A stretch of 64,000 nucleotides of DNA from Owenia fusiformis (lineage: Eukaryota; Annelida; Polychaeta; Sabellida; Oweniidae): contig CAIIXF020000012.1 of assembly GCA_903813345.2 (NCBI GenBank), positions 25,742,184 through 25,806,183 on the forward strand. Reading direction: 5' to 3'. The position numbers and the translations under genes were made by a program. The notes below the pieces were generated by a model. The model saw nothing but the letters and a program-made list of their open reading frames with translations, had not been told where the DNA came from and did not search any database. Positions 24,554 to 62,015 of this stretch are shown here, piece by piece. The stretch's first letter is position 1. Every line of letters starts with the position of its first letter.

Positions 24554-24564
24554 CTAACACCTAC

Positions 24565-27500
24565 CCATATAAGTTCTCGCAAGACTGTACGCAAGATCTC
24601 TCGCGGCCATCTCCAGCTTATCCTGACTGCCCATTATAAATGTCCCCAATGACGATAGAGCACAAGAAACCCTCGAGCTTGGCCCAGAGAGTGATTGCAC
24701 GCTGGCTCCTGATTGGAGCTTTGTTTGGATCTCATTTGCATAGACCTCAAGTGATTCCCCACTACTCTTCATGAGGGCCCTTAGAATGTCCATTGAGAGG
24801 ATATTAGTTGTACCTTCCCATATTGGTAGCACCTTGAATTATAAGTATAACATGTAATGAAGAAAAGCAGTGTGAATAGATGGCGAAAGTGATGTATTCA
24901 AGTTCATCCTCAAGGAGGATTGGCTCCTAAAATGCAACATCGATATTCAGTCCCATATATGGTATTGTGTGTCGTGACCTTAACCTTATTTACACGTGAC
25001 AGTGGTTCCAGAAACATGCCACATATGGGACAGAATATCAATGTTGCATTCTGGGAGCCAATACTCCTTGTTCATCCTCCAATCACAGGACTCAATGATC
25101 CAGAATATCTTTGAGTTCTGTAGCTCTGTGTTTGGAGAATGAAAGAAAGATGATACATGTGTATGATAATCACTTACAAACTCTTAAGAAGTATATACAG
25201 TGCAGTGTTCTTAAAGGGTACAAAATTCTTATTTTCACAGCTCTGCCCAAAATGGTCAAAGGTACATGTACATATGTAGAGAAAAAAATTGTTTGTAGAA
25301 GAAAAAAATTGGTGAATCCTTTTTCTATTTATTTATTTCATAATTCCTTCATATAACAATAAATCGAAGTACAAATTATTTACAGTGGACACCTTATATA
25401 GGTGTATATACTGCTTGATTAAACATAATTAATTTAATTTAATTATCCTAACTTTATTAAATGGTGATTTCTCCAAAATGATGTAGAAGGCGATATAGAA
25501 GGTGAGACTGAATTACCAGTTTGGAATGACCCCCATAAAATGGAATAATGCAAAATACTTCATTACCTGTGCATCTCTTAATAAAGCTGGAATCCCTGTG
25601 TCTTCCATGTAACCTTGACCTCCAAAACATTCTAGACCCTCACTAGCTACAGCTACACCCTGAAAGTGTTAAATTACAGTCATGGCTACCAACATGCTAA
25701 TCATCATGACTTACAACATGTTTACAGATATGTCAACTGACACAAACTGTTGTGCGACGTGTATCAGTAAACTTACTGTATTTTCAATTTTCCCAAAGCA
25801 ACCATTGTGTTTATATCGTGCTGTAGCCTCGTTTCTAATACAGGCATGCATGGCTGGCCCACGTCACTTCTATCAACTATGAACTTATAAAAGGTGATCA
25901 AAATACTATCTTGCTTGTCATTTTTATTTGGTTATATACAATGTACATAAGAGGGGGAGAAACCCCAGGGTTCAAAGATGACATACGCTTATAATGTAAA
26001 TCTGTATTGAGATGACACCGTCGCTGATTGGTTTAGCGAGTCGATCGTTGATTGGTTTAAAACTAGCTCAATTTGAAAACTTTGAAAACCAAGATAGAGG
26101 GAATACATACTTCCGGGAAAGGAGGTGCGCGAAGGAGGAAATCGTATGTCATCAATTGAATCATGGGGTTTTCCCTCCTCTTAATGTACATGTAGTTCAT
26201 GGTTATACAAGAAAAATTAAGGAGGTTCTTCTATACAAAAAAACGACATGTACATTTAAAACTAAATTTACACATACATTCACCTTTGTTTATATCATTT
26301 GTATCAGATCATGAAGCAAATATTGTTACATGTATCGATTTTGAATTAAATGGATGATGATGGAATCCTTAAAATTTACCTGTTTGGCTGTGTACAGTTT
26401 TGCCATTGGTGTGAGGAATCTAAGCAGAAGCCGTTGCTGCTCTGTTGCTATGCCAGTCTCCTCTAGCCCCAGCAACCGTACCATCTCAAACACCAATCCC
26501 AATGCTGCCCTGGTCTCCACCTGAAAACAATCACCATAGCAACCAGAAAACAATGGTGGGTATACGTTCCGTAAAATACAATTCATTGAAATATACTATC
26601 ATTTCATGGAGTATGATTATTGCAACTGTATTTTGATGTTGAGAAATCTTGTGAAAAAGAAGGACTTACTATTAGTATTCAGTGTGTAGAGTTCTAGTGC
26701 TCCATTATGAGATACATGTACTTCACTTTAATATTAGCCAAAATAGGAAAAAGCAGCCTTAACCCAGAATATCCTGGCAAAAACTTGCATAGAGTAACTA
26801 CTATAAAAATGGCATTATGGGATATTACCTCCATTCTTGATAATGTCTGCATATGGAGAGAGTGATCACATATCAGTTTACCAAATGCCCGTCGCTTCGT
26901 GCTGAAGTCTCGCGCAAGTGCCACAATCCTAAAAATATCATAAACATTTCATATTTCAATTGGTAAGTTTTCATGGGATTTTTCATGAATATCAAATGAT
27001 GACTCCCTTGTGAAGATTCTTGATACTACTACACTTTTAAAGTGTATAGTTTCATTTTCACAATTTTGCCAAAAATGGTCTAATTATGCAGGTTTTTAAT
27101 TCTTAGTGTTAAATCCGAATAGCGAAAGTGGATCGGTAGGCTGGTATTCACATTAAAGTTTTTTAAGATGGAAGTCAGATTTAAAAAATTAGATTGAAAA
27201 ATTCACATTGAGAGTTTTCAGTTTTCAGATATACTTTTATTGAAATCATACATTTATCGAATGAAAAAAGCAGACATTGTATGAAGCAAATAGTATGAGA
27301 ATGCAATTTTCATATTTGTGAAATTAAAATGACAACATCTACAAAAGTAAAGTCTACCTTCTCATTCCAGCAACTGCACTAATAGAGTTGTAAATCCTTG
27401 TGATTGTTAGCATATGGGATATTGTAGCCACTCCCCTGCCCTCATCACTCACCTAAATCATGAATACATTGTATAACAGATATTGTAGCCACTCCCCTGC

Positions 27501-30500
27501 CCTCATCACTCACCTAAATCATGAATACATTGTATAACAGATATTGTAGCCACTCCCCTGCCCTCATCACTCACCTAAATCATGAATACATTGTATAACA
27601 GATATTGTAGCCACTCCCCTGCCCTTGTTACTCACCTAAATCATGAATACATTTTATAACAGATATTGTAGCCACTCCCCTGCCCTTGTTACTCACCTAA
27701 ATCATGAATACATTGTATAACAGATATTGTAGCCACTCCCCTGCCCTCATCACTCACCTAAATCATGAATACATTGTATAACAGATATTGTAGCCACTCC
27801 CCTGCCCTCATCACTCACCTAAATCATGAATACATTGTATAACAGATATTGTAGCCACTCCCCTGCCCTTGTTACTCACCTAAATCATGAATACATTGTA
27901 TAACAGATATTGTAGCCACTCCCCTGCCCTCATCACTCACCTAAATCATGAATACATTGTATAACAGATATTGTAGCCACTCCCCTGCCCTCATCACTCA
28001 CCTAAATCATGAATACATTGTATAACAGATATTGTAGCCACTCCCCTGCCCTTGTTACTCACCTAAATCATGAATATAACAGACATTCACAATTGGAACT
28101 CAAAAAGAAGATTTCATTTCTGATTTAAAAGGCTATAGATTGTCAATAGGAAATAGGATTTCTAAAATTACATAGTGAACAAAGGAGGATAGGAGCTGAC
28201 CCAGCATGCATTGTATTTATCTATAGTGAACAAAGGAGGATGGGAGCACCCAGCATGCATTGTTACCTTTATTGCAGGTATCCCAGTAAGCAACAGTTCA
28301 GCTGTAGGGAGCTGCCTTGTTCCTAACTTATCCTTTAGCCTCTGGATGGAAATGTTCTGAAGGTTGCCATCTTTGTCTCGTAACTCCAGGTAAAACATAC
28401 TTAACCCTTTGCTGCCCTAAAATAGCCCATAATGCAGCAGGTTATCAGAGTCATGTCCCATAATGCATCTAGGTCTGAGACAACACGTAGGCATATTTCG
28501 TTTTAGCTTGTCAATTTTCCACACTTATTTTTGGACTAAATCAATCATGAACTCTTTCTAACAAGATTTTTACACCGTTTCTTGAAAGGTTGTAGTTGGC
28601 CATTGATTACATCAAAAAGAGCAAAATTACCAGGATAATGAATGGACGGTGAACAGTTGATACAGTGATTATTAAGGACAAGGTCGAAAAATTAATCGAA
28701 GATCAACCAGAGATACTTCATAGCCATGAGACATTGGTCAAATTTATCAAGAAAGCTCTTAGAAGTCTTGAAAGTACAACACCTCTGATGGCGAACGTTT
28801 TTGAATCGTATCCTTGTTGAATTGAGACTGTCCGAGCTGCATGGGGAAACATACAAACTATTGAAAATGTGAAATATGAACATCACTAAAAATGCTCTTA
28901 AAAATTTGGAATTTAACCAACCTCTGATGGTGTGTGATCAGCAAATCAAATTCCCTTTAAGATGATATATAAAAACTCTATGTTATATCTCAATTAAAAA
29001 AGTTAAGGGGGAGAACAGACTTATTTGACACCTGTACATGTATATCCTGATAGGATTCAGGCCTTTACAAGTATCTACACAGCCAATATAATTCGACACC
29101 GTTTCGGCATCGAACAAATTCGGCACCGTTCAGGCACCGTTTCGACACCGTTCCGGCACCGAAACCTTTCAACACCAAAATTGGCTACCGGACTAGTCAG
29201 TCCATTTGGTGCCGAAACGGCACCGAAATTTGGCACCGAAACGGCGTCGAAAATTAGATTGCATTTTGGGGGTGTATTTGAATCTAAATCTAAAACTAAA
29301 CATCACAAAAATATTTTTTCTTCTTTTCACAACATTTATTTTACTAAACAGTACGTTTCAGATCCTGTCTGGATCCTTTTTCAACTGTATAAAAACTGAA
29401 CTGAAGCGCTACAAAACAATTAAATAAAAACAATATTACGTCATATTAATTCACCAAAAATTTATCCAAATTCCCGCAAATTTATAGTTCCCTTGATCCC
29501 TGTTCATATTATTATAGTTTATCTTTATAAAAATAGATTCTTTAATCCATCTTTCAAGTCTCTTATTGTCATTGTCCACAACCGTAGTATTGTTCCAGTC
29601 CATTATGCAATTATTCTGTAGACGTGGTCCAGTTCAGTTTTTATACAGTTGAAAAAGGATCCAGACAGGATCCGAAACGTACTGTTTAGTAAAATAAAGG
29701 TTGTGAAAAGAAAAAATATTTTTGTGATTTGATAATCCAACCTGAGGAACATGTTTAAGAATAAAAGTAAACATGTTTTTACTCTATGACTGTAGTTAAA
29801 ACTTACTGGAGTGGGTTGACCATCGTCATCTACTATACGGGCAAGGGTCAAGGCCATATCACTGTCTGTTGCCGATGTAAACCACTTGTAACCATAGAGA
29901 CGATAAGTGCCATCATCCTGTGCTACAGCAAGAGTTTCTGTACCTTCACCTTAAATTATTGAAGTAGAATGAGTTGATATGTAGTGTTGCATGATTGTGC
30001 TATTGTGTTATTGTGCTATAGTTTCTAGATCAGCAGATAGGTGGCATCGTTGTATAGTCTCGAACCAGAAGTAAAAATAAAGTTGAGTTTTAAAATCTCC
30101 AAATTAAATCGTTTATTATGCTGTTCTTAGGTGAAAATAATGAGTCTGTGTAAGTGGATGCCTTTGGTACCTAAAAATAGTTTTCTGTTTTTATTGGGAG
30201 GAGCTTCACTCACAAGGGTTTACTTTACAAAAAGTTATTGAACAGGACTTGAAAATGTGTTCCACTTAATTAGGTTTTATACTAACACAGGTTTTAGTGT
30301 AGTGGAAATAAATAAATGGGTACACACATTGTAATGTATAAACATGGTATCAACATGCAAAATGTCCCCACCTACCATTTGTTACAGATGCTGACTGCCC
30401 AAGGCCGCCCACCAAATAGTGACAACTGAACACCATCAACAAAAAAGTTGGAGACTATATAACAATACTTCAGGTGGTGACATAAAAAGTGAATTGAAAT

Positions 30501-33500
30501 GAAATACTGTACTTCTACTTAATTTAAGTAGGGCCAAATTAAGAAGAAGTACAGATGAAAACCAGAGAAAGCAAAATAAAAAATATCCTTTTCATATAAT
30601 CTCAGACAAACATTGTATGGGGCCATTTTGCCTTACAGTATAGTGTGCAAACTTTTGTAAAGTATTCATCTCGTGGATTTTGATAAAGGGTTTGGTTACC
30701 TTTGTTTAAAATGAATACATTTCTCAGGCATTAACAACATTAAAAATCTATTTACCAACATCAGAGCCACCTTTCCTCTCAGTCATCCACTGCCCTGAGG
30801 TCCAGAACCTCTTGGGGTCCCTAGATGTTAAGTGACTGAATGCCTCACCAAGGCTCTCTTTCAAATCTAGCGCCTGAAAGAGGTGTACATGTATTGTTCA
30901 GAACCTCTTGGGGTCCCTAGATGTTAAGTGACTGAATGCCTCACCCAGATTACCTTTCAAATCTAGTGCCTGAAAGAGGTGTACAAGTATTGTTCTCAAC
31001 TTTAAAGTGACTTCAGAATTCAGACCAAGATAATTGATAAGTAAAAGAATGGGTAAAACAGGTATAAATAAAAAGACAAATCCAATTATAATTTGGTTGT
31101 CACATTTAGCCCTATCTGTCACCATATCAACACAGTAAACTAATAAACAGTGTGATACAGATAAAAAACAAACCATCTGTTCAACACTCGAAAGCATGAC
31201 TGTTGAAACGTCAGATTATTATTTATATTGGAATTTGTACCTCAATTGATCTTGCAGCGCCATCTGTCATAGCGAGGGGACATGGGTAAAGACCTCCTGA
31301 GGGGTTGAATAAATACAGCTTGGCCATTTGGTAGAGTCGACTAAAATGTAGATTGAAAAAATTCTGACAAGGTATTTTTAGTCATTAGAGGATCATTTTT
31401 AGATTTATATACGTGTTGCACTTGCGTGCCTCTTTAACACAAACATTGACTTCACACTTTACAGGTATAATTTAAACCAATACAATACAATGCAATGCAA
31501 TGTTATACAATGCAATGCAATGCACTGCAAAACAGATTTTTACATGTCAGACTACTGGAAGAATGAACAAACCTCCACTGAGTATATACTTACAATACTA
31601 TACAATATAATACAATGCAATGCAATGCTATACAATACAATGCAATGCACTGCAATACAGATTTTTACATGTCTACTGGAAGAATGAACAAACCTCCACT
31701 GAGCATATTGTCTTTCGTATGGAATGGCAATAAGACCTTCTGTTGCAGAGACGTCATGTAGATCTCTCCAGGCTTGACACGTCACAATTTTGTCGACACG
31801 TTTACCCCAAGCATCATATTGTATCAGCCTTGGCTGCTCCTTTTCACACTGTTCTCCTAGTTTCATGATATCTGTTGCAACCCTATGACCAAATTTGGTC
31901 AAGTCTGGATTCACTGCTTCATACACCTTGTAAAATACAAATAAATAAGTACATGTAATCAGTACATCAGGAGAACAGTTTACAAAGTGAACAATACCTA
32001 AAAATTATATATGACTGCATGCCTCAAAAATTAATCCACATGCCCAAAAACTATTCTGTCCTAATTTCTTTACCAAGGAACTCTGAATTTTTTATCAGAG
32101 ACACATCCATTTTTTCCCTAATTGTCCTGATGAGACAAGATGACATGCGATTTCTTAGGGATTAATTGATTTTTTAGCTTCTTCACCCATACTGACTGGA
32201 TGAGCCAGAAGTACTCGTTGCCATAAGTTGCGGCCTCAAAACCCGGGTTTGCCATCATCCAAATCCGCCTTTGCAAAAATGTGAACGGTTCATAATAAGA
32301 CTCATTCCTGTTATTTTCGGGAGTTTTCAAACCTGGATTTAATTGTTTTTATTAGAAGGGTTCCTAGTTATCAATTGTAATATGTGAGATTTTGACCCAG
32401 ACTGACACAATAGAAATTGCAACACTGGAGGATGGTAATAGCGTGGAATTGTATTTAAATCAAATATTATTAATAAATATGAATACAAATAAATTTGTTT
32501 CAAGTTCCTCATCTCTACTGGCCAATTTTTCCTTGCTTTAGTAGCTGTTGTACCGATATATTATCTTAGTCAAAATAGAGAATGAACGAGTATAAGGGGT
32601 CTTCTAGCTTAGCACATTTTAGACCAGTCATAATACGTAACTATTTCCAATATGTTTCACGTCTTGGTACATGTAGATACAAAATAACACATATGAACAA
32701 TTCTAATAAAACAAACTTTTATATTTCGTAGCCTCATTAAACACCTATTTCGTTTGGAATGGCCTTAAACCCTGATCCGCAAAACAATCATTTAAATAAG
32801 GGATTGGCGCACCCTGGTCTGACTGTAAACCTCCTGTTCACTGTCGTATGAATTATGAAAGTACATGCAGTTTCGCACACTTGTCAACGGAAACAAACAG
32901 TGAACCAGTGCTTTCCCAAACCCAGGTTTCCAGGATTCGCCTCGCATGCCTTCGACTCTTTCTCGGATGAGCAGTAAAAGTCCAGCCAAAAAGTGCTCTC
33001 GTCCTGACAAAAGATCCTTACAATTAATCATGGTTTGTATAAAGTATATAAGACACTTTATTGGAATATTATATGACAGGTAAATAAGAGTATAAGATAG
33101 ATTAATGCTATGAAGAATATAAAAGTGTAACAACCCAAGGGCCTACTGGGGAATGGCCAACTGCCAAGCATCGTGTAACAAGCCAAACATATATAAAGGA
33201 AAGTGTGTTAAATATAACGCCCTGAGTGGGAATCAAAACCCAGGACTCTCAGGTTCAAAGTATGATGCCCTACCATTGAGGGATTAAGCCACCAGCTGTA
33301 TAACCCCCAAAGATGTGGGATTGGATTGGCATTTTTTATTTATTTAAATTATTATTATATGAGGCCAATGCAAATGTCAAAACTTAAAAAAACGCAAACC
33401 GGACAAACATTTATGTGGCAGAAACTGGAGTAGCACCTTGCTATCCAAGCCAGTGTTGTTACATTTAGGTTACATGCACATTTACATGTATAAGTCGCTA

Positions 33501-33800: not shown

Positions 33801-34106
33801 AATGCAAATCTTTGCAAACGTAATCTGGTAACAAAGTTCAAAAGTTATCAGAAGAACAAGTTCAAAAACTTTGGAATATTTTGACAACCGGAAGTGAAGC
33901 TTTGTTGATAAACAATAAGAATCAAAATCAATTTAAATAAAAAAAAAAATCTTATCAATAGCTATTAATATCTAAAATTATAAACTGAATAATTGTATAA
34001 ACAAAAATTAAACATAATCAAGCAAATTGTATTAAATATCAGATTGTTATGGATAAAAATTGACCAATCAGAATCCAGAGCGGACGATTATACGGGAAAA
34101 ACAAAA
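33801..34106. promoter_or_regulatory. Divergent promoter region between dehydrogenase and PI4KA
   Basis: The start codons of the two genes (33800 on minus, 34107 on plus) are about 306 bp apart and face away from each other. This region must hold both transcription starts and 5' leaders. It contains ACCGGAAGTG (33887-33896), an ETS-factor-type site common in bidirectional housekeeping promoters. No TATA box is obvious. The role is inferred from position and motif. Confidence 0.6.
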
Positions 34107-37100
34107 ATGCCAGGTGAAAAGTCTCAGCATCTTAACACTTTGCTGAACCTAGCACGATCCCTTGCAGCATTGAAGCCAGCTTCATGGGAGAAGGTAAGGC
34201 ACATATAGAGGAATAGTTTGACCTTGTGTCGCGTTTTAATTCTTGCTAGAACAATGTGTTTTTTAATTTTTACTGAAATTAATTTTAGTCGAATATCTGA
34301 ATAATCAAGCAAACTGCAAATGCCCTGGATCACGGTTGTTTGAAGTTTAATACAAATAGTAATAAATATCAGGTAAGAAAGATCCATTTAGAATTTCATT
34401 TCTACAGTGGGGGACATAAAGAATTACAAAAGCTATGGAAATTACATGCTGTCGCACATGTAATAAATTCTTACTTCAGTGTATCCAGTGCTCTATCTTC
34501 TCCGTCCTAGTTAGTCCAAATATAGTAGAATTCAAGTCTATAATGACAAATAAGAACTTAAAAATTTGAAGTGGAATTCACATGTTATGCCAACTCTTCA
34601 AATGTTGAGGTGATTTTGGAGCCCAATTGCGCCGCAATGTTGATTGACTCCCAGAATGCAACATGACACGTGTCAGCTTTCAAAATGCTGTTCCGCCATT
34701 TTGAAATCTGTCACGAGTTAATAAGATTACCTGATGTTGCATTCTGGGAGTCAATCCTCCTTGGATCACAAACATGGCGATTCATGAAAACATTCGTTCG
34801 ATTTGGTAGGGATTTATCTATCATTTGCAGGTATGAAGCTTTGGATTCATTTATTGTGCTACTTAAAGTGAATGGGAATTATTTTTCTACCGCTTGGGAG
34901 AGTTTGAGACACGAAACTTTGAATTTAGCTCATTGTGACAACTTTTGAGGGTTGAGATTTATTTTTGTCCCCCACTTTACATGGATACTGCACATGTGTC
35001 CCGCAATGTCATTGGTCATAAGGTGGTGCTCGGGTCATTTTACGAATTTTATGAATTTTGCAGTGCTTACATTCACAATAGTATCTTGCTGAAATAGCAA
35101 GATTGAGGTATGAAATACATTTTCTAGATCCTTTAAGCTGTTATCTTGGGCCTGTATGACTGCCAAATCTCAAAAATCATGATAAAGATGTGTATTATCC
35201 ATTTGAAAAACATCAATACATCAGACAAAAAAGATTCCGCAGTCCGCACTTGTAGTTTTAAAAAATAATATGAAATTCTGTTCACTGTGCCCTGGATCCA
35301 AAGACAGTTGGAAGTTCATTACTTATAAACTGATATACAGCAGGTTATGAACATTAAATTTGGATTCCATTTCTTCATCCCTACATGCATTTCACGCTCT
35401 TATTGGTCAATATGCTCAAATAAGGCATGGCGCATCCCATTTTTGAAATGGTCGTTCATTTAAAGTATCATCTCGCCAGAATAGCAAAATTGATATATTA
35501 ATTTTTTTTTACCTATATCTTTTATGGTGTCATCTCAGGCTTGTTTGACTGCCAAATCTGGATAATCATGATAACAATATGTTTATTTTTTTGGAAAATA
35601 TTATTAATTTTTTCTGAAAAGCTTTTACGACCTCTTGATCCTTGCCTGAATCGAAATTGAAGGACTCATAGGAATAAGCTTGCGGTTTTCTCTCATGCAC
35701 GAACCACAGATGGTCCTTGGGTAATAAGAGTGTGAGGCACTACAATGTACAAGAATACAGATAGGTGGTTCGAGAGGTTGGAAAAGCTTGAATATATTTT
35801 GAAAAAAAATAAAATCATCCTCCAAGACATCCTCCTAAGCAGGTGTCCAGAATCCATACCTCCTTCTTCCCCCTGCTACAACCAATTTGGACGTGCCCGA
35901 TTTATCTGAATCACATGATCTAATCATGCGCAATGATTTATACATGATTTCTGTCACAGTGTTGTGACAGCCAATCAGATTGTGAGTTCTTAATCGGGGA
36001 AATGGTAACTGCTTATCGCAGGGGGTAAGAAGAAAGAATATGGTCTAGATTTTGAAGCCCTGTGATCGGAGGATGCCTCCAAGATAACCATATGATCTTG
36101 ATATTGTGTACTCCTGGTATTCCAGCGGTCAAAATGATGTAAATGGTAACTCATTTGGTTCACTATGGATTGAGATATATCTATAATGAGCTCCAATTTA
36201 GAGGCCATTATTGAATCTGCAATGAATTTACTAAAAAAAATTGAAAGATCACCTCCATTCATGAATGTTATTGAATTACCAGCAACAATTTCTTTTCCAA
36301 CAAGTCCATTTGGGTGTATTCTTCCAGATGATGTTGATGATAGATGTCTGAGTGAAATAATAAGCTGTAAATTAAATAAATTGTTCTGATTTCATATTCC
36401 TTTAGAAATTTTTGGACATTTTCAAACTGAAAGTCTTACTTTCGTTTTTACAGACATTATATAAAACAGATAAATTAAGCATACAAGAAATTCATTAAGG
36501 TTCGATGTCCATATGAATAAAAGTACATTTATTGCAATTTAGCATTGATATAATTGTGGACTATATTCCCTCACATGCTCAGCTGTCCTCGCATTAATAT
36601 ATTTTCTTTGGGACTGCAATAAACGTCCCAACTGACAATGGAATATGAGAATTAAAGCCATGAAGTCACATAGCTTATCGAACCTTACTAATTTAATAAG
36701 TCTCAAAAACTTACTAAAAGGTTACAGACTTTCGAGAAATACAATTTGCAATTTCGTAACTTTTTAGTATTTTTTAAAACTTACTAAATTACTTACTAAA
36801 AATATCTGCCTGACTGATAAAGTTGCTTCTGATTTGATAGTTAAGGTGACAGGTACATTTTTCACTTTAGTCGGAAATTCAGTCAGAAATATTGACAGAC
36901 TTTATACCACCTGTGTATGTGCATGAAAACATACACCTTTAAAGGTTTGTCATAGCCTCACTTTATGTTTATCGCAATTCTGTTCCTAAATAGCAAGCGA
37001 ATAAGAATAGAATCATAACTGGTGCAAAGCCAGAATACAGACACATACTTATCTTATAAGTCTTATACTACATTATATTAAATGTGTTATAGGTAAGCCG

Positions 37101-50400: not shown

Positions 50401-53400
50401 CACATCAGGTCAGCAGGAGATGCATGACCTGCTTGTGCGTCTTCTAGAGCTGTTTGTTCAGCTTGGGCTGGAGGGCAAGAGGGCCTGTGAAAGAGCACCA
50501 GGGGCCCTGAAGGCATCAAGCAGTGCGGGTAACTTAGGTGTACTCATACCAGTTATTGCATTGGTAAGTGTTATATTATGTTGTCATCTTGTGTTGATGG
50601 GTGGTTGGTTAGGTTGGGCTAGAAATCTTGTCGAGAAGACCATTCACCTGTTTAACTGAAAGCATCTACTCGTGTCATGATCGAGATTTTAGGCATGCTA
50701 GGTTATAATAAGGCACCCATTTTGAAATTCAAGACTTTCCATCCCATTATGTCTCTTTTTGTCAAATCAGAATAAGTATAAAACATGTGCATTAACTTTT
50801 AAATGGTCAACTTTATGTCAGTATAAGGATAGTCACAATTCAATATCTCCCAAAATCACTAATTTAATATTTGGCCTCCTTTTGTCAATAATTCGCTCAC
50901 AATAATTTACAAATCCTTCATAGTATGTCCCATAATTTCAGCTGACACGCAGGATGCCACCTATAAAAGATCAAAAGCCTCGTCTTCAGAAACTATTCCG
51001 TGATTTCTGGCTGTACTGTGTTGTCATGGGATTTGCAGTGGAAGATTCTGGTAAGTGAATTACTTTCTTTGCTTCAGGACCTGCTTGCTAGACTCGTTAC
51101 ATTGTACATTGACCCCCCCCCCCCCCCACCCTCATTGACATCAAATGGAACTAAGACTCCCAAGTGAACAATACCTTGAATTGCTAGGCTTACTACTTTT
51201 TATGTTGACCCCTTATCAAATGTATCTAAGCACTGGCTGTTTTCTGTATAACAGTGTCAAGATATAGGGACAGAAAATATTCTAGCATAGTAAGAGCATT
51301 CAATATACAGTTAGCAAGTGTAACACAGGCCTTGAGTTTATTGATTTTCTCCCTATATCATGACATGTATATTTCTGTAATAATGGTCAGATCCATTCTA
51401 TGGGGCCATTGATAACAGTAGTTTGCTCCATTTGGCATGGCTGCTACTTATGTTAGCCCATTGAATGGTACCATTTTTGAGAAAATATTGACTTTAGTTG
51501 GACAAGAAATCATTTTGTGGAATCTTGGTTGGTCGAGTTAAATTATCAAAAAGTTTATGGAACTGTTTCCAAAAATACATTCTGATCAAGTTTAAAAAAC
51601 TAATTTATACTGGCATTGTCAATATTGCAGCTTAATATAAAAGTGCATATACATTACATTTATAGGTTTGTGGCCCCAGGAATGGTACGAAGGGGTATGT
51701 GAGATAGCTACAAAATCCCCACTCTTGATATCAAAGGAGCATCTACGTGCAGCCCTCACATACAATTCTGCATTGAAAAATGACAGTGTAGCACCCGTAA
51801 GTACAATTCTTTGCAATTAATTCTCAGCTATGTTTTTCTGCTGTGGAAGTTGGCCACGAAGAATAAAAAACGTTATATAATAAATGATAGGATAATTTAA
51901 TGCTTTTTCAAAGCCAGGGGTGTAAATATTGGGTCATTCAACAAAAGTGGGCACTTTGTTCTCCATTAGATACAATATGAAAATTATACTTTTTCCTTCC
52001 TTAGATATACTCAAAATTGCATTGAAGCTATGCTTTATACTTCACAAATTATGAAAATAAGAATAAAGGGATTTAGTGATGGTGTCAGGATGCCAACATT
52101 TGCAGTAAAATGATGTAAATTTCATTAGGGGAGGGGGTAAATGATGATTTTCATGAGTGAATTATGTTGATTTTTGTAAATGAAATTAAAATCAAATTTT
52201 CAAATGCTGTTATATGGAGGAGGAAGTTAATCCATGATGACATTGCTTTTCCAAACATTGGACAGCATCTCTTAATTTGACAAAAAACATCACTTTGAAT
52301 TTTGCTACTGAGAGACAAATTAAGCCCATAGTTAATCAATCAATTGAGTACTCCCCTAAACACATTGTTTTACTTTCCTTATTCCCACTTAGTCATTTGA
52401 TTGTCTTTTGAAACTTTCTTTGCTTTTCAGTTCTTATTTTCTATTTAGACATTTTGATAAATTATTTTTCTTAAAGGCCCCATGTAAAGTTTAAGAGCTT
52501 TGCTATAGCCTTTACTTCTCACTGGAGTCTATTTTTTGAGGGGATTTTAATAGATTTGCTAATATTCAGCCACTAAAGGACTTAGACTCTTCTGAGCATA
52601 TTTTTCGACCTGAAGAACTTTGATTTAATTGTAAATGTATTTATTTCAATTTACTATGATTTTCATCTTTTCTGAAAAAGGTCGGGCTAAATTCCATTGA
52701 CAATTTTCAAACATTGATTCACTCTTAAGAGTCACAATTGTAAGGTTAAATTACAATAACCATGTTAACGAGACCATCTAATTGGCATGGCAATGGAGTT
52801 TACATTATCTGATAATTCAGGAAATAAAGTAACTGTTGTGAGCTGAAGTCTCCATAATAGAAATTAGAATATGCTAGCCCGACCAAATCTACCACTGCCA
52901 TCTATGTTAGACTATGTATCCATCTGTATATAGCAAGTCCCCTATTTTTCCCAAATCTTTATTTTTCGTCATGTGTTTCTTCTAGAATGAAACTGAGCTC
53001 CTGTTGTTTCACCCCACGTACTATGAAAGTAACGTCATGTATTTGGTACATAAATCAAAAGTCGAGGTTTGTAATATGTTAAATGCAAAGCTTTCGGATA
53101 TTTATATATAGCTTTTTTCGCCATTCTTAATTAATTAATACACACTTTTCCATTGTTATTATTAATTTCCTTGGGATCATGTGTTTCTTGATTTTTGAAA
53201 CCCTTGCCTTTTCTGTGACACCTCTCATGATTGGATAGAATCTGATTTAAGGCAGAGAAATAGAATGTTCCTTTGTCGGGTGTTGAGACAATGGCTTGAT
53301 GGGTGGTGGCCACCTATAGGCAAAAACAAGAACTGTTCATGAACTATTTGAGAATATTTCATGAACATATTCTTGAACTGGCAAGCATTGGATCATTGGG

Positions 53401-56400
53401 AATATTTGGATTTCACAGAGTTCTTAAAAATCACAGTTAAAGAATGTAAAAGATGTAAAGGACAATTTTTGCTGTCATCATTCTTCGTCATGACCTGCCC
53501 AATTTCTGAAATTCCAGAATAATTCATTGATCTTTAAAGCAAAGAATTGAAACATAGATAAATATATAATATCAGGATTCCGGAAAACATTGTATGGATT
53601 TCAAAACAATTGCTTCCAATAGTTTACACTCCCTTGGAATCTCATTCCTTTAGATACATGAAAATTAATGAAGTCACCAAATACAGTTGAACTGTAGTGT
53701 ATTAAAGGGCCATTGTCAACATCTGTGTTCTGTAATTCTGATTCTGAATTTCCCCATAATGCAAAACAATTTTAATCCTAGTTTTATGCAGCGTGCGCTC
53801 AGTAGCCTAATAGCTAATGCTTTTCGATATGATCTAAAGCTTGAAAAAGTACTATTGATGGCAAAAGTTAAAATCATTATGAATTGAAAAAAAATATGGT
53901 CAATTATGACCAGAATTACAGACAATGTCCCTTTAAACTTAGTACTAAGATGGCACTATTGTACAGGAATAGCATATTTCACTTCACTCGATAGCGTAAA
54001 TAGAGAAGGTTCCCTTGTTTTTAATAAATTATGGATGCATGGGTTCACTTTCCTCCTCTTATGGATGAACTTTATATTTCTCTATTTCTCACCCTTTCCC
54101 TTGTCCTAAGATCAGTCTTATCTATATCTTTCCTTTGTCTAGATCAATCTTTCTACCTTTCTTATAAACATCTTTGATCTATCATATGGATATACATTTT
54201 TGCAACCATTTATGTATGTTATGGTTAAGATTGTATGTGTTACAGTTAAGATTGTATGCGTTACATTTTGTATTATATGTGCTACATTTAAGATTGTATG
54301 CTTTGTACTCTTCTATGTTATTACAATATTACGTGTAGTTTCTTGTAATTGTTATAAGTACATTTAATATACATCTTATATGCTTATTTGACCAACAGTG
54401 CACATTTGCGCCTATACAAGCTATTGCCAGGGGGCTGAAGGGTTTGTACCCCCTGTGGTCTTTGGATCAACAAAAAACATCATTTTCGGCATTTGAATTT
54501 CATTCTAAAAAGAGGCATTATTTTAGTGAAAATTTGGCTTTATATTTTACAGGATTTGAATGAATCCTCTCGCCATTATTTAAAATGTCAAAATAAAAAT
54601 GAAAAAAATGTTGACAAAAAGAAAAAATAATCCTCCACACAAAATCCAGGAGGGAAAAGTGCATGTGCTACAACTATGATTGTGTGACATTAGTGTTTCA
54701 TTTAAGAACCTTATGTTAAATTTTAACTACATTTTAAATGACATGTGTTCAACTAAGATTAGATTTATAAGATTGCTAAAGGGTTTGTTCCAAATTTTGA
54801 CAATTGTGAAATGAACTTTGAAACTGTTGATTTGTCATTCACTTGAATTTCACTCAATAAAAACATTTTTCAGGTCTGGGGGGTTCAAATTTGACAAGTT
54901 TTGCCCAAAGTCACTTAAAAAGTCCTCAAAGTGGTGTAAAAGTTGCATGATTTTGAAAAAAGATTTTGGTCACTGTCAACATTTGGAAATCAACCCTAAA
55001 TCAGATGATAGTATATCATATGTAACATATTGACAGTTCGACCTATCCTTTGTTTTCTGTCTAGTTAAGAATGTGTTTGGAATAGTTTCTTTGTAATATG
55101 TGATTGTAGGAACATTTTCTTTGTAACATGTGATTGTAGGTATAGTTTCTTTGTAACATGTGATTGAAGGAATAGTTTCTTTGTAACATATGATTAAAGG
55201 AATAGTTTCTTTGTAACATGTGATTGTAGGGACATTTTCTTTGTAACATGTGATTAAAGGAACATTTTCTTTGTAACATGTGATTAAAGGAACATTTTCT
55301 TTGTAACATGTGATTAAAGGAACATTTTCTTTGTAACATGTGATTAAAGGAACATTTTCTTTGTAACATGTGATTAAAGGAACATTTTCTTTGTAACATG
55401 TGATTGTAGGGAGAACTGAATGAGTTGAGATTGAGTATATGTAATCTACTAGAACACCCTACTGATGTGGTCCCCCTCGTGAACAAACTCAGCTTTTCAC
55501 AGTGCACATACCTTCTCTCAGTATACAGGCTAGAAACGCTAAGGTATTGTTATTATACAGGGTGTTTTGTAATGACCTTACCTCACCCACAGTCAAGCAA
55601 ATATTTTTATTTTTCTCAGCATTACTGAGTCCAGAATTAAACAAGCTTTCATATGATGTATAACACATGGGGTTAAGCTATCAAGGATTGGGTGTTGATG
55701 GGAAGGTCATTATGAAACACTGTGTATTTTAGCACACAATGAATTCATGTACATCTCCTAATGATAAGATTAATGGTTGAATCGGAGACAAAATTACAAG
55801 CAACATTTCCATTTCCAAAAATGAACAAAAAATGAAAAAATCTAATCTCTACCTTTTGAAATATCTGAAAAAGATATGTGACACCTAAATGAACTGAGCA
55901 ATTATGTGGATTTTAACTTGATCTCATGATTCTGTTGATACTGTGAGTTAGCTAGGTGGTAGCATAGCAAAGGCATGGACTATATGTGTCTGAGCCGACT
56001 TGGCAGTCATTTCGGCTCCACGCAGATCTTAAAATGCTCACGTTACGTTGAGTTCTGGTTACAACCTGTGAGTTATTTGAAATTAAGATTTAGAATTTGT
56101 GAGTTCTTCAAAGTCAGAAAAATCCAGATTTATATGCCAAATGTAAATACCGGTAAATCTTCATCTGACCAAATTTTACCGAGAACACAATGAAACATAA
56201 TGCAATGGATTTTTGGAAAATAGTTAAGAAAAGTTACACTGAATCAAATTCTACATTGCACTCATGTATACATATCTCCATGTGCATAAAAAATTAGAAA
56301 TTGATATCATTTTTGCAAGGATGTAATGTATTGTTTTAGGGTGGCCCATTCCCCAGAGAAAGACGCATTCCATAACATATTCCATTATCTTGAAGATGAC

Positions 56401-59400
56401 ACCATTATCAAAGACAAAGCTGGTAAGATATCCCATAATGCACTTCTCTAAAAGCAGACGATTCATTTGATTAAAAATCATGCATTTTCAGTTTTGCCAG
56501 ATATATTGAATAACTTATATTTAAGATACAGTTAATGCGTCTGTAATGCCTCCACTGTTGGTGCTTTGTATAGACATGTAGCTTAATTTATTGTATGTTA
56601 TGGAAAATTTTGCATTAATTAATAAAAGGTGAAGAAGTCTGTATTTTCAATATGTGTAATTTCAAGGTATGTGGCAATGTATATTAGCAGTAGGAGACCG
56701 GGCATTTAAGATGTTCCTCAACTCTATGTCAGAAATGGTAAGTTATGTAACCAATCAAATCCAGCCAAGATTAGTAATATACTGTATAACATGAAATATT
56801 GCCGTTGAAATAAAGTTGCCGAATGTTAAACAGAAACGGCAACATAAAATTTGGCAATATAATTAAGTAATTGAAGATCGATCTTAGTGGGAGATAATAT
56901 GGAAGTTGTCTAACGTGCGTCAACTTACTGTAATAGGGTAATTTTCGAACGAGTATCAACGATAAAATCGAAGCTTTAATCCCCAGCATAATATTACAAT
57001 AAAAAGTTATTAATAAAAATGTTGCAGTTAAAATGCATGCAGTAAAATCTATAAAATATTAAAAGGATTGTCATGTTAAAGAGTTAAAATGTCAGAAGAT
57101 CTAATTGTATCCAAGTGCTTTGGAAATCCCAGTATTAAAAGTTTTTAATCCCAATATTAAACGTTTTAATCCTGGTATTAATTTTCCTGAGTCTATCGAA
57201 TGCAGGTATTATGTGAATAAATCACTCGAATTGTCACTCATAATGTCAGGATGTCAGGTTTTCTGAGTCAGTCAAATGAAGGTGATTAAAATTAGGGGTG
57301 TCAGCGTAGCAATATTTTATTTGGCTTTACATTTAGGGGTGTCAGGTCGGCAAACTTTTATTCGGCAATAACAATTTTAATCCAATTCAGAAAATAAAGC
57401 ATCCGGGATTTAATACATGTTATACAGTATCCCATAATGCACTTCTTTAAAAGCAGACGGATTCATCAACTTCAGATTCAGACAAATAATTATGTGGCTT
57501 GATTTGGAATGAGACAATATTTATTATATTATATATTATTGTAACCAAACCACCCGAAACACAAATAAGTTGTCGAGAAATCTCATAGGAACACAGTTCA
57601 TAGACATTACTACAGTTAAACCAGACATACTGTTAAACCAGACATAATTTACTTTCATTTATTACTTTCAGCCAAAAACTGAGGCAAAAACAACTGAGTT
57701 AGAAATGCACGCTCAGTTCCTATTGGTCAAATTCAATCATGTACACAGACCTATTCGAAGAGTGGCGGACAAGTATCTCTCCCAACTCGTTGACAAGTAA
57801 GGAACATCACAAATAATATATATGACAGCATTTTTGCGCAATTTGTATGAAATATATTAATTACATGTTTACAATTAGTGTTGTCGCGATGTGCCATAAT
57901 CGTACATCGATGCATCGGCAATTTTCAGGAGTGAACATCGATGCACATCGCGATGTACATCGAGAAAAAGTCCGAGAAAAGTGCACTGAAATACCGAACG
58001 CTAATGCACTAAAATACCGAACAGAACAAATTAATAAGAGTACGCTGGTACATCCGGGAACTTCTAGTAACGGTGAAATGAAAGTAAAAGTAATTTTTTT
58101 AGATTAATGGTTCATTTCGACTAGCTAAAGCAGTTTTAAAGCAAAAGAATATCAGAAAACATTGGAAAATGAAATAATTCATGAGAAAGGTAAGCGATTT
58201 GCGTCAAAATAAGATAAGAAAGGGTGATTTTTAGCAAATTAATTATTTTTTAAAAACATCGATGTTTTGTTTCAGACATCGATGCATCGCCAGAATCAGC
58301 TTTGGCGATGTATATCGCGATGTATCGATTAATCGCGACAACACTATTTACAATCGTATTATATAAAATTGTAGGAAATTAATTCTTTATCCATTTCCTT
58401 ATCAGGATTATGATTTGAAAGAATAATAGAATACATATCAAGTAATTTTACTTAGAACTATTTTTCTACTTGTTCATTATATTAACAGGTTTATCACTAA
58501 TTTAATTTGGTACTAAATTAGTATTAATTTGGTACTTACAATTTTAGTACTTATGTGCCATTTTAATTAGCACTATTCCCTATAATTCATTTATTAATCT
58601 GTATTGTCTGTTACAGGTTCCCACATTTGTTGTGGAGTGGGGTTGTATTGAAGACTGTACTAGATGTTCTACAGATACTCTCCCAGTCACTACAAATGGT
58701 ACGATATATTCTACTAAACTAATTAAGCTACTATTTTAACATGTACAAGTACATATTTAACACTTGTGGTATTTAACACTTGTAGTGTACACATCCACCT
58801 GCCCCCACCTCCAATATTCTTATACAATGCATTCTTTCGACTTGAGAATTACCACACTTTTATACAGTTACATGACTATGTTCAATCGAAAAATATCTGC
58901 ATTCATATTTTTGTAAAATCTTGATTCCTCATTCCTAGCTACAGTCATGAATATATGACAAAAAAGGCTCAAAGTTTTAGGCACTGGGTCCCTTTAAGTA
59001 TAATCCATTTTTATTATTAGGACCCCCATGCGGAGACCCCCCAGATTGCTGTACCTGGCACGCCATACAGTCTCCGGTTCATGGACAATATGTCAGTAAG
59101 AGAAAGCACTGTAAAAGACTTTGCTGCACGGAGCGTCGGCATACTGCAAGAGTCGATGAAATGGGCCCCGAATGCCACTAGGAGCCATTTGATGGAATAT
59201 CTGAGGGTTCAAAGTCTAACGCAACATAGCGGGCTTGCCCTTGCTACTGAGTCAGTACTCAAGTATGCAGGTTATAATAAATCCAGTGCACCTCTGGGGG
59301 TAAGCTCATATCTTATTTTATATCAAATATTATATCTTTGATAACACTTTACCCCCTTTTTGAAATATTTCAGAGTGTAACTCATAGAGACCCCATTGTT

Positions 59401-62015
59401 GAAATATTTAAAGGTGAAACTCTAGACATTATTAGAAACCTCTTTGTTGTAATATTTCAGAGTGTAACTCTATACATTATTAGAAACCTCTATGTTGTAA
59501 TATTTCAGAGTGTAACTCTATACATTATTAGAAACCTCTATGTTGTAATATTTCAGAGTGTAACTCTAGACATTATTAGAAACCTGTATGTTGTAATATT
59601 TCAGAGTGTAACTCTATACATTATTAGAAACCTCTATGTTGTAATATTTCAGAGTGTAACTCTATACATTATTAGAAACCTCTATGTTGTAATATTTCAG
59701 AGTGTAACTCTATACATTATTAGAAACCTCTATGTTGTAATATTTCAGAGTGTAACTCTAGACATTATTAGAAACCTGTATGTTGTAATATTTCAGAGTG
59801 TAACTCTATACATTATTAGAAACCTCTATGTTGTAATATTTCAGAGTGTAACTCTATACATTATTAAGACCTCATTGTTGTAATATTTCACAGTGTAACT
59901 CTCTACATCATTAGTATAGAAACCTATTTGTTCTAATATTTCAGTGTGTAACTCTAGACATCATAAGAAACCTCTTTGTTGTAATATTTCAGAGTGTAAC
60001 TCTATACATTATTAGAAACCTCTATGTTGTAATATTTCAGAGTGTAACTTTAGACAAGAGACCTTCATGTGTGAAATATGACTCTTCAATATTCATGGCA
60101 AAGCTGAGCATGCGTACAAGATTTGCTGGTGAGGTGGCTGGTATGAAGGTTGCACTACAGGATGACCAGGTACTCTCCAAAACTCTGGCAAAGCAGATTA
60201 AGAATGCTGAAGCCAGCAAAGATGGTAAGTTTATGATGATTCTCTAACCTTTAGCAGATAAGTTGTTCTCATCAGGCACAATTTTGAAATAGTTGAAAAA
60301 GATGGCCAAATCAGTGAAAGTAGGATGTCGGTAGAAACAAAACATTTGTACTCAGTTAAATGGTTTCTATCAGGTTATTTCTGTTTTTCATATATATATA
60401 TTCTCATTATTTGATCAATTCTCATTTTAAAAAAAAGGTGTTGTAATATGTTTTATTTCTTCATAATTGATAATAATTGGGAATTATTATGTCACCATCA
60501 GAAGATATTGTTATAATCTTCAACTTTTTTGTGGATGGCAGTTGGCATTCAGTGGTTGGTGTTTGGCAATCAGTTTCTGTGGCAAATGGCAGGTGGTGAC
60601 ATTTTGCGTGTTAATGTCTTGTAATATGTATTGTTGTTCTTTAGGGAGATACTGTAAGTATGGCCATATTGTAGATACTGGCTGTACTGATATTGTAAAT
60701 ATTGGCATTACTGATATTGTGAATATTGGCAGCACTGATATTGTAAATATTGGCAGTACTGATATTTTAAATATTGGCAGTACTGATATTGTAAATATTG
60801 GCAGCACTGATATTGTAAATATTGGCAGTACTGATATTGTAAATATTGGCATTACTGATATTGTAAATATTGGCATTACTGATATTGTAAATATTAGCAG
60901 TACTGATATTGTAAATATTGGATGGAACACTTATTCTCTTTCAGGTAACTATGAGGACTGTTTGTTTAGGATTACTGCATACCTGATTTCAATGCCACAT
61001 GTTAATAGACAGTTATTGCATGAACTCTGTTGGTCTCCCGCAACATTGTTCACAGAGAAGTCCATGGAAGCAGCTGTTGCATGCTGGGAATGGCTCCTTG
61101 CAGCAAAAGAAGATCCAGAAATAACGTTACAGGTGGGTACAATGAAGGAAAAAGTTCTTGGCGGCATTTTGTGTGATACAATTTTTTTTAAGTTCATTCC
61201 TTCAATAATTGGATTGTTATGCAGTGTTGTTGCCTTTTTTGCCTTACCATAAGAAATATAAATTTGGTTTGGTCGTGACATATTGTTATAGTCTTCAATG
61301 TTTTGTGGATGGTGTTCGACATTCAGCAGTCAACATTCTGGGTTCAGCATCTGTAAAGTAAAAGTCTTGTTTTACTGTTTGATTAAGTAAAAATCTCTTT
61401 TTGTTCTCTTTATTACCGTATATGTACAATGAGCCATATATTGTATTTTATTTCTTTGAAATGACATTATTGTGTTTAATTTCAGTTTATGCAGGAGATG
61501 TCTTCTTCCTGGCAGATGACAATTGACAGACGGTTAGGGCTGTTCTCTGTGGAGGATCCTGAAGTTGATCCCCTAGCTGTCTCTGAGGGTGAACCCCCCA
61601 GGCCTAAACCACCATTCGTCTACCCTCATGCTATATGGTCTAAGGTAAGAGAGCCACTAGGGCTAAACTACTATTTTTCCTCAATTTTTGTCAAACCGTC
61701 TGCTTTTTGAAATGCATTATGGGAATGATTTCCATATCTTCAGTTTATATAAAATCTTCAGCGTTTTGAAATGCATTATGGGAATATTTCCATTTCCTTC
61801 AGTTTATATAAAACCGTCTGCTTTTTGAAATGCATTATGGGAACAACTTCCATTTTCTTTCAGTTTCTTGCTGAAAGACTAGAGATTGCCAAGTACCACA
61901 GCATCGACCAGGTAGAGATCTTCGCCAACATGCTCCACAAGTCTTTAGGGATCCATGTTGGACGACCTAACAGTGTCATGAATAGACATATTGCTGCAGT
62001 AGGCACCCGTATGCG
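34107..62015 (+). CDS. PI4KA: Phosphatidylinositol 4-kinase alpha, N-terminal two-thirds in 26-27 exons
   Basis: PI4KA (yeast Stt4) makes PI4P at the plasma membrane together with TTC7 and FAM126. The 27 exons found join without a phase error or stop into 1,342 codons (1,315 without candidate exon 17). They match human PI4KA from its N-terminal region to about residue 1,290 of 2,102, the alpha-helical solenoid. Strong blocks include [80 protein letters not shown] and QVEIFANML. Exon 27 ends at a clean donor (62015|GTAAGC). No later PI4KA exon precedes the opposite-strand gene at 62839, so the lipid kinase domain is absent from this window. Exon groups are listed separately. Five acceptors sit at the end of exon-head tandem arrays, a sixth (exon 18) at the end of an acceptor-only array, and exon 25 just after another array. 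Confidence 0.95.
34194..37092 (+). other. PI4KA intron 1
   Basis: It contains three repeat features. A MITE-like inverted pair lies at 34638-34763 (GACTCCCAGAATGCAACAT and ATGTTGCATTCTGGGAGTC), whose arms match the element at 24912-25069. A diverged direct duplication of roughly 430 bp lies at about 34970-35630. A short element at 36496-36687 is bounded by TAAGGTTCGAT and ATCGAACCTTA. No gene is seen inside. Confidence 0.6.
38326..38489 (+). repeat. Tandem array of the exon 4 acceptor and exon head, 34-bp unit
   Basis: Units read as a TTATTGTAACTC tract, then TTCAG or TTAAG, then AATTGCCTAAC. Copy boundaries after AG are 38355, 38389, 38423 and 38457. The functional exon 4 starts at 38490 with the same AATTGCCTAAC. 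Two upstream copies keep a good pyrimidine-CAG (38388 and 38422). The others have TAAG. The period is not a multiple of three. Confidence 0.92.
39838..39991 (+). mobile_element. pogo/Tigger-like MITE fragment in PI4KA intron 5
   Basis: The right end reads TCAGATTAGTCAGGTTTTTACTGTA, matching the pogo/Tigger terminal pattern seen at 17096-17120. The body has TCTGAACACTTAAGG. The left end is diverged. Confidence 0.5.
41828..51796 (+). CDS. PI4KA: PI4KA exons 10-16
   Basis: Exons are 41828-42093, 43990-44085, 48657-48840, 49130-49224, 50353-50563, 50942-51050 and 51666-51796. Exon 10 ends [13 protein letters not shown], as in the human protein. Exon 11 gives [20 protein letters not shown]. Exon 12 gives [20 protein letters not shown]. 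Exon 14 gives [11 protein letters not shown] and [15 protein letters not shown]. Exon 15 gives [11 protein letters not shown] and exon 16 ends LKNDSVAP. Intron 11 (44086-48656) is the longest here and contains a nested gene. Exons 11 and 14 are the last copies of long exon-head arrays. Confidence 0.95.
42425..43989 (+). repeat. Tandem array of the exon 11 acceptor and most of exon 11, nine extra copies
   Basis: Each 162-169 bp unit contains about 70 bp of intron end (TAACCCTAATATATTTCAG) and about 87 bp of exon 11. Exon-like starts are 42520, 42683, 42852, 43015, 43178, 43341, 43503, 43665 and 43828. The functional copy is 43990-44085. In the extra copies the exon end (GATATGAGCGACAG and its donor) is replaced by GATATACACATGTACAC. 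Copy 4 has a TGA in the exon frame. Copies 5-7 resemble copies 8-10 as a higher-order unit of about 487 bp. Confidence 0.97.
44820..45235. repeat. Minisatellite, about 13 copies of 32 bp
   Basis: Units of GGTCATCTCAACCCCAAGTC plus a variable AACTCAACCCAT lie in PI4KA intron 11, downstream of the nested gene. Overlapping frames in all three phases are repeat translation, not genes. No splice site is involved. Confidence 0.95.
45691..46297 (-). CDS. Small two-exon gene nested in PI4KA intron 11
   Basis: Exon 1 is 46297-45884 and exon 2 is 45813-45691 (stop), joined in phase after AAAAGG|GTAAAT to give 178 codons. I do not recognise the family. The protein is polar and basic. An acidic middle ([17 protein letters not shown]) leads to a compact motif-like stretch ([20 protein letters not shown]), then [17 protein letters not shown] and a basic helix-like region ([13 protein letters not shown]). 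The C-terminus is Ser/Lys-rich. There are no membrane segments. Evidence for a real gene is the good splice sites, the frame kept across the intron and an AATAAA on the minus strand about 270 bp past the stop (45420-45425 on plus). It is antisense to PI4KA. Confidence 0.65.
47180..47350. mobile_element. hAT-like MITE with 8-bp target duplication
   Basis: The 8-bp repeat GCTTATAC flanks the element (47172-47179 and 47351-47358). Its ends are inverted, from AAGGGTTTCA to TGAAACCCCT, with further pairing of CAACAGGC and GCCTGCTGTT. It lies in PI4KA intron 11. Confidence 0.8.
47735..47777. mobile_element. Remnant 43-bp mariner-like MITE
   Basis: A TA-flanked fragment runs from CAGGGTGACACC to GATCACCCTG. 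It is short enough to be little more than two terminal repeats. Confidence 0.55.
48085..48271. mobile_element. mariner-like MITE
   Basis: A TA-flanked element runs from CCGGGTGACCCAAAATTG to ATTTTGGGTCACCCTG. The terminal pattern is shared with 19561-20119 and 47735-47777. A lone half-end (AGGTGACCCAAAACGC) is also present near 40316. Confidence 0.7.
49610..50352 (+). repeat. Tandem array of the exon 14 acceptor and exon head, eight extra copies
   Basis: Units of 88-94 bp contain a TTTCCAG acceptor, then GCATGTGTCTCTAAATGATC, which resembles the start of exon 14 (GCATGTGTCTCTAGCAGTGA). Exon-like starts are 49637, 49725, 49813, 49901, 49989, 50077, 50168 and 50259. The functional exon is at 50353. 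The copy at 50259 is a hybrid that keeps AGCAGTGATCAATGC. Confidence 0.95.
52986..53066 (+). CDS. PI4KA: Candidate 81-bp cassette exon of PI4KA (exon 17)
   Basis: An open 27-codon block in phase 0 at both ends lies between TTCTTCTAG and the donor GTTTGT. Joining exon 16 directly to exon 18 already reproduces the human order (NDSVAP then GELNELR, compared with NDTVTPAELSELR). This block would therefore be an insertion without disturbing the frame. The GTTTGT donor is weak but is also used by dehydrogenase exon B. It is either an alternative exon or a pseudo-exon. Confidence 0.4.
53706..53932. mobile_element. MITE with TTAA target duplication in PI4KA intron 17
   Basis: TTAA lies at 53702-53705 and 53933-53936. 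The ends are inverted, from AGGGCCATTGTC to GACAATGTCCCT, and TCTGTAATTCTG pairs with CAGAATTACAGA inside. This is the second TTAA-flanked AGGG-ended family in the window, different from 10675-11222. Confidence 0.8.
55081..55409 (+). repeat. Tandem array of the exon 18 acceptor, 11 copies of 30 bp
   Basis: Exact 30-bp units read TTTTCTTTGTAACATG, then TGATTGTAGG or TGATTAAAGG. The last unit is the real acceptor (AG at 55408-55409) of exon 18. Usable TGTAG ends survive at about 55109, 55139 and 55229; the other copies read TAAAG or TGAAG. Extension of the exon upstream would meet TAA in the first added unit. Minus-strand frames over it are translated repeat. Confidence 0.95.
55410..59299 (+). 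CDS. PI4KA: PI4KA exons 18-23
   Basis: Exons are 55410-55543, 56340-56422, 56667-56737, 57672-57796, 58617-58698 and 59021-59299. Exon 18 gives [13 protein letters not shown] and [14 protein letters not shown]. Exon 21 gives [20 protein letters not shown] and exon 22 gives [14 protein letters not shown]. Exon 23 gives [20 protein letters not shown] and [12 protein letters not shown]. All are close to the human protein. Exon 20 starts GTATGT directly after AG. Confidence 0.95.
55558..55724. mobile_element. MITE directly after PI4KA exon 18
   Basis: A TA-flanked element runs from CAGGGTGTTTTGTAATGACC to GGTCATTATGAAACACTGTG. It begins only about 14 bp after the exon 18 donor. Confidence 0.75.
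57876..58346. mobile_element. hAT-like MITE with 8-bp target duplication in PI4KA intron 21
   Basis: TTTACAAT lies on both sides (57868-57875 and 58347-58354). The ends are TAGTGTTGTCGCGATG and CATCGCGATGT-type sequence finishing AATCGCGACAACACTA. Internal words such as CATCGATG and ATCGATGC recur in both orientations. No transposase is encoded. Confidence 0.9.
59366..60040 (+). repeat. Tandem array of the exon 24 acceptor and exon head, about 13 extra copies of 48 bp
   Basis: Units read AGTGTAACTCTATACATT, then a linker, then TTGTAATATTTCAG. Copy starts are 59374, about 59413, 59461, 59509, 59557, 59605, 59653, 59701, 59749, 59797, 59845, about 59892, 59945 and 59993. The functional exon 24 starts at 60041 with AGTGTAACTTTAGAC. 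The period is 16 codons in the exon frame. The two nearest upstream acceptors (59944 and 59992) are open into exon 24. Confidence 0.97.
60041..62015 (+). CDS. PI4KA: PI4KA exons 24-27
   Basis: Exons are 60041-60224, 60945-61132, 61486-61644 and 61864-62015. Exon 24 gives [19 protein letters not shown] and RFAGEVAGM. Exon 25 gives [13 protein letters not shown] and [16 protein letters not shown]. Exon 26 gives [15 protein letters not shown] and YPHAIWSK. Exon 27 gives [20 protein letters not shown] and [14 protein letters not shown]. The order and spacing follow human PI4KA. The donor at 62015 leads into an intron with no further exon before 62839. Confidence 0.95.
60645..60930 (+). repeat. 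Minisatellite, about ten copies of 27 bp, just before exon 25
   Basis: Units of TACTGATATTGTAAATATTGGCA (with TTA, GCA or GTA joins) end about 20 bp before the exon 25 acceptor (AG at 60943-60944), in the branch-point region. The acceptor itself is not repeated. Confidence 0.93.
61681..61863 (+). repeat. Tandem array of the exon 27 acceptor, three units of 59-61 bp
   Basis: Units read TTTATATAAAACCGTCTGC, then TTTTGAAATGCATTATGGGAA, then a pyrimidine tract and TTCAG. Units end at 61743, 61802 and 61863. The last end is the working acceptor of exon 27. The first bases after each AG (TTTATA and TTTCTT) are alike, so only about three exon bases are shared. Confidence 0.9.

Follow-up and report, generated by a model that had tools for sequence, protein, structure and literature searches.

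Tandem arrays across exon–intron junctions of a PI4KA gene and an ACDH-11-like gene

Genes and exon models of the window

The window, by which we mean the whole 64,000-nucleotide stretch of DNA analyzed here, contains a PI4KA gene and an acyl-CoA dehydrogenase gene on opposite strands, for which the exon ends are throughout models built on homology, GT/AG dinucleotides, and reading frame. The PI4KA gene (34128..62016, + strand) has 26 exons by spliced alignment, and a PDB comparison of its exon pieces, once joined, finds human PI4KA (best E 1e-174); the exon model comes from a splice-aware alignment with a human sequence and has identity at 661 of 1275 aligned residues. The 5′ end of the first exon is unplaced and the alignment ends at reference residue 1351, the gene being incomplete in the window. 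The ACDH-11/AidB-like acyl-CoA dehydrogenase gene (24563..31923, − strand) has 10 aligned exons, and its nearest PDB entry is ACDH-11 of C. elegans (E 1.2e-154). Both spliced protein alignments read through with zero stops. One of the 35 acceptors counted below, at ACDH exon 1, is incompletely modelled: it is set by the point at which the protein alignment begins, and an AG lies three bases upstream of it. PI4KA exons 18, 24, and 27 of a preliminary description of this DNA are exons 17, 23, and 26 here.

Other features lie around these genes. A fucosyltransferase-like gene (21508-23803, + strand; Pfam Glyco_tran_10_N and Glyco_transf_10) has two introns placed by eye; a degenerate 31-bp array (TRF 23187-23331) occupies the intron preceding its last exon and does not cross the acceptor, and a 92-bp x 9 array (20609-21429) lies upstream of its frame. 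Just past PI4KA exon 26 on the opposite strand, though PI4KA is incomplete there, a long open frame (62842-63999, − strand) matches dermatan-sulfate epimerase (PDB 6hzn, E 6.8e-47), with a Pfam Hepar_II_III_C match under the cut-off. There is also a LINE reverse transcriptase-like fragment (2231-3097, − strand; RVT_1, under the Pfam cut-off), and a dehydrogenase intron contains short tandem repeats of GGCACCG type (29119-29252). A scan of viral contigs with a 94-residue piece of PI4KA gave eight pattern matches and no confirmed relatives.

Arrays at acceptors and donors

Tandem arrays that repeat the splice junction are present at 8 of the 35 modelled acceptors of the two genes; the preliminary description had counted the same eight, in a total put at about 40. 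We searched 69 junctions by an ungapped scan for a shifted copy crossing each, and six acceptors score at least 20 (PI4KA exons 4, 11, 17, and 23; ACDH exons 3 and 6). PI4KA exon 14 scores 18.5, and all other acceptors score 10.5 or less, including exon 26, whose 10.5 is no better than that of junctions lacking arrays. The chain script returned zero copies for exons 14 and 26, and gapped alignments were therefore used to identify both. As earlier proposed, the TRF periods extend from 30 to 163 bp and the units have between 3 and about 87 exonic bases.

In the dehydrogenase gene, the exon 6 acceptor (exon 27358-27452) lies in a 61-bp x 10.8 array (27418..28076, − strand) whose unit comprises the intron end, the AG, and 35 exonic bases, and the exon 3 acceptor (exon 30756-30873) lies in a 96-bp x 2.0 array (30803..30995, − strand) with 74 exonic bases per unit. 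The PI4KA arrays are all on the + strand. At exon 4 (start 38490), a 34-bp x 5.2 array (38327..38501) includes 12 exonic bases per unit, and at exon 11 (43990-44085), the unit of a 163-bp x 9.9 array (42462..44076) takes in 87 of the 96 exonic bases. The array at exon 14 (49603..50385; exon start 50353) has a unit of 88-94 bp (TRF period 88 bp) with about 32 exonic bases; the TRF interval stops at 50267, and gapped alignment joins the functional copy to it. A 48-bp x 13.7 array (59397..60056) with 16 exonic bases per unit reaches exon 23 (start 60041).

These six of the eight acceptor cases are clear, with at least 12 exonic bases in the unit. At exon 17 (start 55410), a 30-bp x 10.9 array (55079..55409; TRF interval to 55405) repeats the acceptor region virtually without exonic sequence, as had been noted before, its three shared exonic bases being at chance level. 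Exon 26 (start 61864) also has three exonic bases per unit, in a 59-61-bp x 2.9 array (61693..61866; TRF period 59 bp). We regard exons 17 and 26 as marginal, with acceptor-region arrays as an alternative name. A 24-bp x 10.7 array (60666-60921, + strand) falls a little short of the acceptor of exon 24 (60945), which it excludes.

The AG is kept in 45 of 47 upstream copies in the six chainable arrays, a count from which exons 14 and 26 are excluded because the strings used to find their heads contain the AG or lie next to it. The earlier observation that the last copy is always the functional one follows largely from the geometry of any tandem duplication across an acceptor, and says little in favour of a special mechanism.

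Duplication is not confined to acceptors, as had been supposed, and amphioxus donors are affected too in the account given in PMC3087553. The ACDH exon 1 donor (exon end 31694) is spanned by a 121-125-bp x 1.9 array (31478..31708, − strand) with 15 exonic bases per unit, in which the first copy adjoins the exon. A weaker case is the ACDH exon 5 donor (exon end 28267), where two copies (about 28172..28272, − strand), with no TRF row, extend 6 bases across the junction, and copy two lacks the GT; its score is 28.0, which only one of 300 intronic positions drawn at random outside TRF arrays equals or surpasses. One clear and one weaker case are thus found among 34 donors, and the array overlap with these modelled donors shows no excess over expectation. 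The proposed enrichment at acceptors over donors is seen in these two genes when only the clear donor is counted (8/35 vs 1/34, Fisher P 0.03), but with both donor cases it is not significant (8/35 vs 2/34, P 0.08), nor is it under strict TRF intervals (6/35 vs 1/34, P 0.11).

Chance overlap, splice-site choice, and copy variants

The most durable alternative is that a minisatellite-rich genome with dense exons will have some arrays that touch acceptors by chance. The array set comprises 14 arrays covering 5761 of 37454 bp, 5 of which lie off junctions, and random placement of whole arrays already gives 4.24 expected acceptor overlaps, with P(≥8)=0.021; moreover, 30 of 150 intronic positions drawn at random reach a shifted-copy score of at least 20. 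An array begins, however, with a single unit and only later adds to the length of its intron, for which reason we prefer a null in which every array is collapsed to one unit and placed at random. Under this null, 0.94 of the 14 arrays are expected to span an acceptor and 8 do so (P 3.2e-7), with little change when units may not be placed within an exon or across two junctions (P 4.2e-7), when the set is restricted to arrays of at least 2.8 copies (7 of 10 observed, 0.56 expected, P 7.7e-8), or when it is enlarged to 16 arrays and 37 acceptors with the fucosyltransferase junctions drawn by eye (P 8.9e-7). Strict TRF intervals, in which six arrays cover an acceptor, also give small values at five thresholds (P 7.1e-5 to 5.0e-4). 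All of these P values are post hoc, since there are two genes in a window picked for its visible pattern. The description of the overlap as far beyond chance is sustained under the single-unit null and much less so under whole-array placement; a junction overlap above a reasonable chance model is supported, with an outcome that depends on the null, and we consider chance overlap alone unlikely.

A different origin is suggested by ACDH exon 6, where the exon and all ten upstream copies read AG|GTGAGT. The exon 5-6 join recreates a donor-like site that scores 7.5 on a generic matrix, compared with a maximum of 6.9 among the 34 modelled donors, and each copy could in principle act as a recursive splice site. 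Intron birth in the Rogers model, which starts from tandemly duplicated AG|GT proto-splice sites and has been discussed for the amphioxus globin mirages, would predict such units, but GT begins only this one of the eight exon heads, and the other seven begin AATTGC, GGGGTT, GCATGT, GGAGAA, AGTGTA, TTTCTT, and GCGCTA, making intron birth a very improbable account of the arrays.

The acceptors themselves do little to mark the copy in use. Scored with a generic matrix, arrayed exons do not have stronger acceptors than others (mean 2.8, n=8, vs 2.5, n=25; Mann-Whitney P 0.92, with one acceptor whose score tied with an arrayed one omitted, as was ACDH exon 1). Scores are equal for the used and upstream copies at ACDH exon 6 and within 0.6 across nine copies at exon 11, and at exon 23 the AG-keeping copies are all equal to or stronger than the used acceptor. 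The upstream acceptors are weaker in three of four copies at exon 4, with one stronger, and in seven of ten at exon 17, with two equal and one stronger. Judged by these scores, acceptor strength may mark the used copy at exons 4 and 17, though not generally.

Use of an upstream acceptor would introduce a stop in 16 of 20 hand-picked copies from the eight arrays. The four stop-free copies, namely the nearest two at exon 23 and the nearest one each at exons 11 and 4, would extend the exon in frame, the exon 23 acceptors adding 16 and 32 residues. The 48-bp array before exon 23 (59397-60244, + strand) is open across long stretches. Exon 11 offers a further hint of constraint, in that its upstream copies diverge less in the exon-derived than in the intron-derived part (0.047 vs 0.089), and among the 13 distinct differences that set their exonic part apart from that of the functional copy, 6 are synonymous, compared with 25% expected for random changes. 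Such features could signify that the arrays are useful, providing redundant acceptors or alternative ones that insert peptide repeats. Against this stand the stops in most upstream copies examined and the restriction of the exon/intron contrast to one array, where homogenization from the functional copy could produce it, and we give this reading little credence.

Variant patterns within the arrays point to exchange among copies. At exon 11, the functional and third upstream copies have private variants in common, both in their intronic part and where the exon begins, upstream copies one and four are identical across the aligned stretch, and TRF likewise gives a 487-bp period of three units. 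A three-unit block exchange thus appears from these patterns to have reached the working junction, although it would not have been a clean copy, as the functional and third copies differ at four positions deeper in the exon. The ACDH exon 6 array has two variant types in mixed order. In both clusters the variant patterns fit concerted evolution.

This sharing of variants between non-adjacent copies at exon 11 and ACDH exon 6 argues against a simple assembly artefact in which repeats were collapsed or over-expanded. Assemblies are often wrong in the copy number of near-identical arrays, and an aberrant draft assembly is reported for an amphioxus globin mirage (PMC3087553), so that copy numbers here may yet be off; however, the copies differ from one another, and the two-copy cases are only 91-92% matching, and an artefact seems extremely unlikely. 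A single repeat family is ruled out because units are unrelated between loci, and an RNA-gene or tRNA origin is rejected, with nothing at the Rfam gathering threshold and zero tRNAs from ARAGORN. The unrelated units and differing periods support a recurrent process at exon–intron junctions, which the earlier view had placed at acceptors.

Origin of the arrays and comparison with mirages

We conclude that these arrays are probably mirages, minisatellite-like tandem duplications of exon–intron boundaries. The preliminary description knew of no named class for them, but one has been described under that name in amphioxus (PMC3087553 and PMC3902484). We envisage that a duplication of ~30-160 bp would originate across a junction, mostly an acceptor, and that slippage or unequal exchange would expand and homogenize the duplicate, a step partly demonstrated here. 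The unit beside the intact exon body and donor would then be used, since under exon definition the donor is paired with the closest acceptor, and the remaining copies would be removed with the intron. As damaged exons would be selected against, additional copies would stay on the side of the intron. The excess at junctions over intron interiors would most likely stem from a bias in the sites at which duplications begin or survive.

The identity of the host bears on how widely mirages occur. The GC content of the window is ~35%, and that of Branchiostoma about 41%. Coding GC is 45.3% in PI4KA, 47.2% in the dehydrogenase, and 40.2% in the epimerase-like frame, and two of these three fall within the range of 42.5-53.4% given for most chordates. 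The CpG observed/expected ratio, 0.46 overall, falls to 0.35 in PI4KA introns, and such depletion, in contrast to the coding GC, fits poorly with the low CpG methylation that a 2026 paper reports for B. floridae. Composition thus leans weakly away from Branchiostoma, and a spread of mirages beyond cephalochordates is possible. More tentatively, and with much less confidence than we place in the class assignment, we speculate that the host lies outside Cephalochordata, that mirages are wider in animals, that duplication targets acceptors at a high rate (e.g., at the polypyrimidine tract while it is being transcribed), and that the ladder of eleven AG|GTGAGT sites at ACDH exon 6 is possibly recursive.

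With ten candidates in two genes, the locus lends itself to asking how the spliceosome chooses among near-identical acceptors, and whether duplications arise preferentially at splice junctions. Should the bias toward junctions be genome-wide, it would be an input to models of intron gain and of exon-length change.

The arrays resemble ordinary intronic minisatellites in copy structure and unit sizes, but differ in having the splice junction inside the unit, with at least 12 exonic bases in six of eight. Tandem repeats are mentioned in amphioxus huntingtin (PMC2206037) and in an earthworm intron (PMC12783039), where the available parts of the papers do not state that they span junctions. The Rogers model of intron gain through tandem genomic duplication, cited in PMC3087553 and with a reported case in potato RdRp (PMC4974935), likewise involves within-gene tandem duplication with splice sites. 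Unlike that model, the duplicates here lie beside modelled exons and within introns, and one of the eight heads is AG|GT. The introns of amphioxus VCBP3 contain exons, whole or partial and in some cases with canonical splice sites, near the exons that they resemble (PMC2632668); unlike the arrays here, these are not described as tandem junction arrays in the part of that paper available.

Amphioxus mirages are the closest parallel. The available parts of PMC3087553 describe tandem repeats over 3′ or 5′ exon–intron boundaries in the globins BflGb6 and BflGb9, with 10-160 bp units, concerted evolution, and apparently regular splicing; two of 15 globin genes have mirages, and a third has degenerate repeats. 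A boundary duplication in amphioxus PGBD5 is described in the corresponding parts of PMC3902484, mirages in Adh3 and troponin C are cited, and the mirages reported in these parts are from cephalochordates only. These two papers were the only ones found to use the name among the matches listed, mostly judged by title or opening lines in a search with most subscription journals outside it, and mirages look little studied. The arrays described here share with amphioxus mirages the boundary-spanning minisatellite-like repeats, a real exon adjoining one array end, involvement of both 3′ and 5′ boundaries (the latter at the ACDH exon 1 donor), and periods of 30-163 bp with consensus units that differ between loci. 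Unlike the amphioxus globins, with mirages in two of 15 genes, they affect 8 of 35 acceptors and one or two of 34 donors in two genes of one sequence. The class itself is already described, and the main interest of the locus is its local density of arrays and their bias toward junctions.
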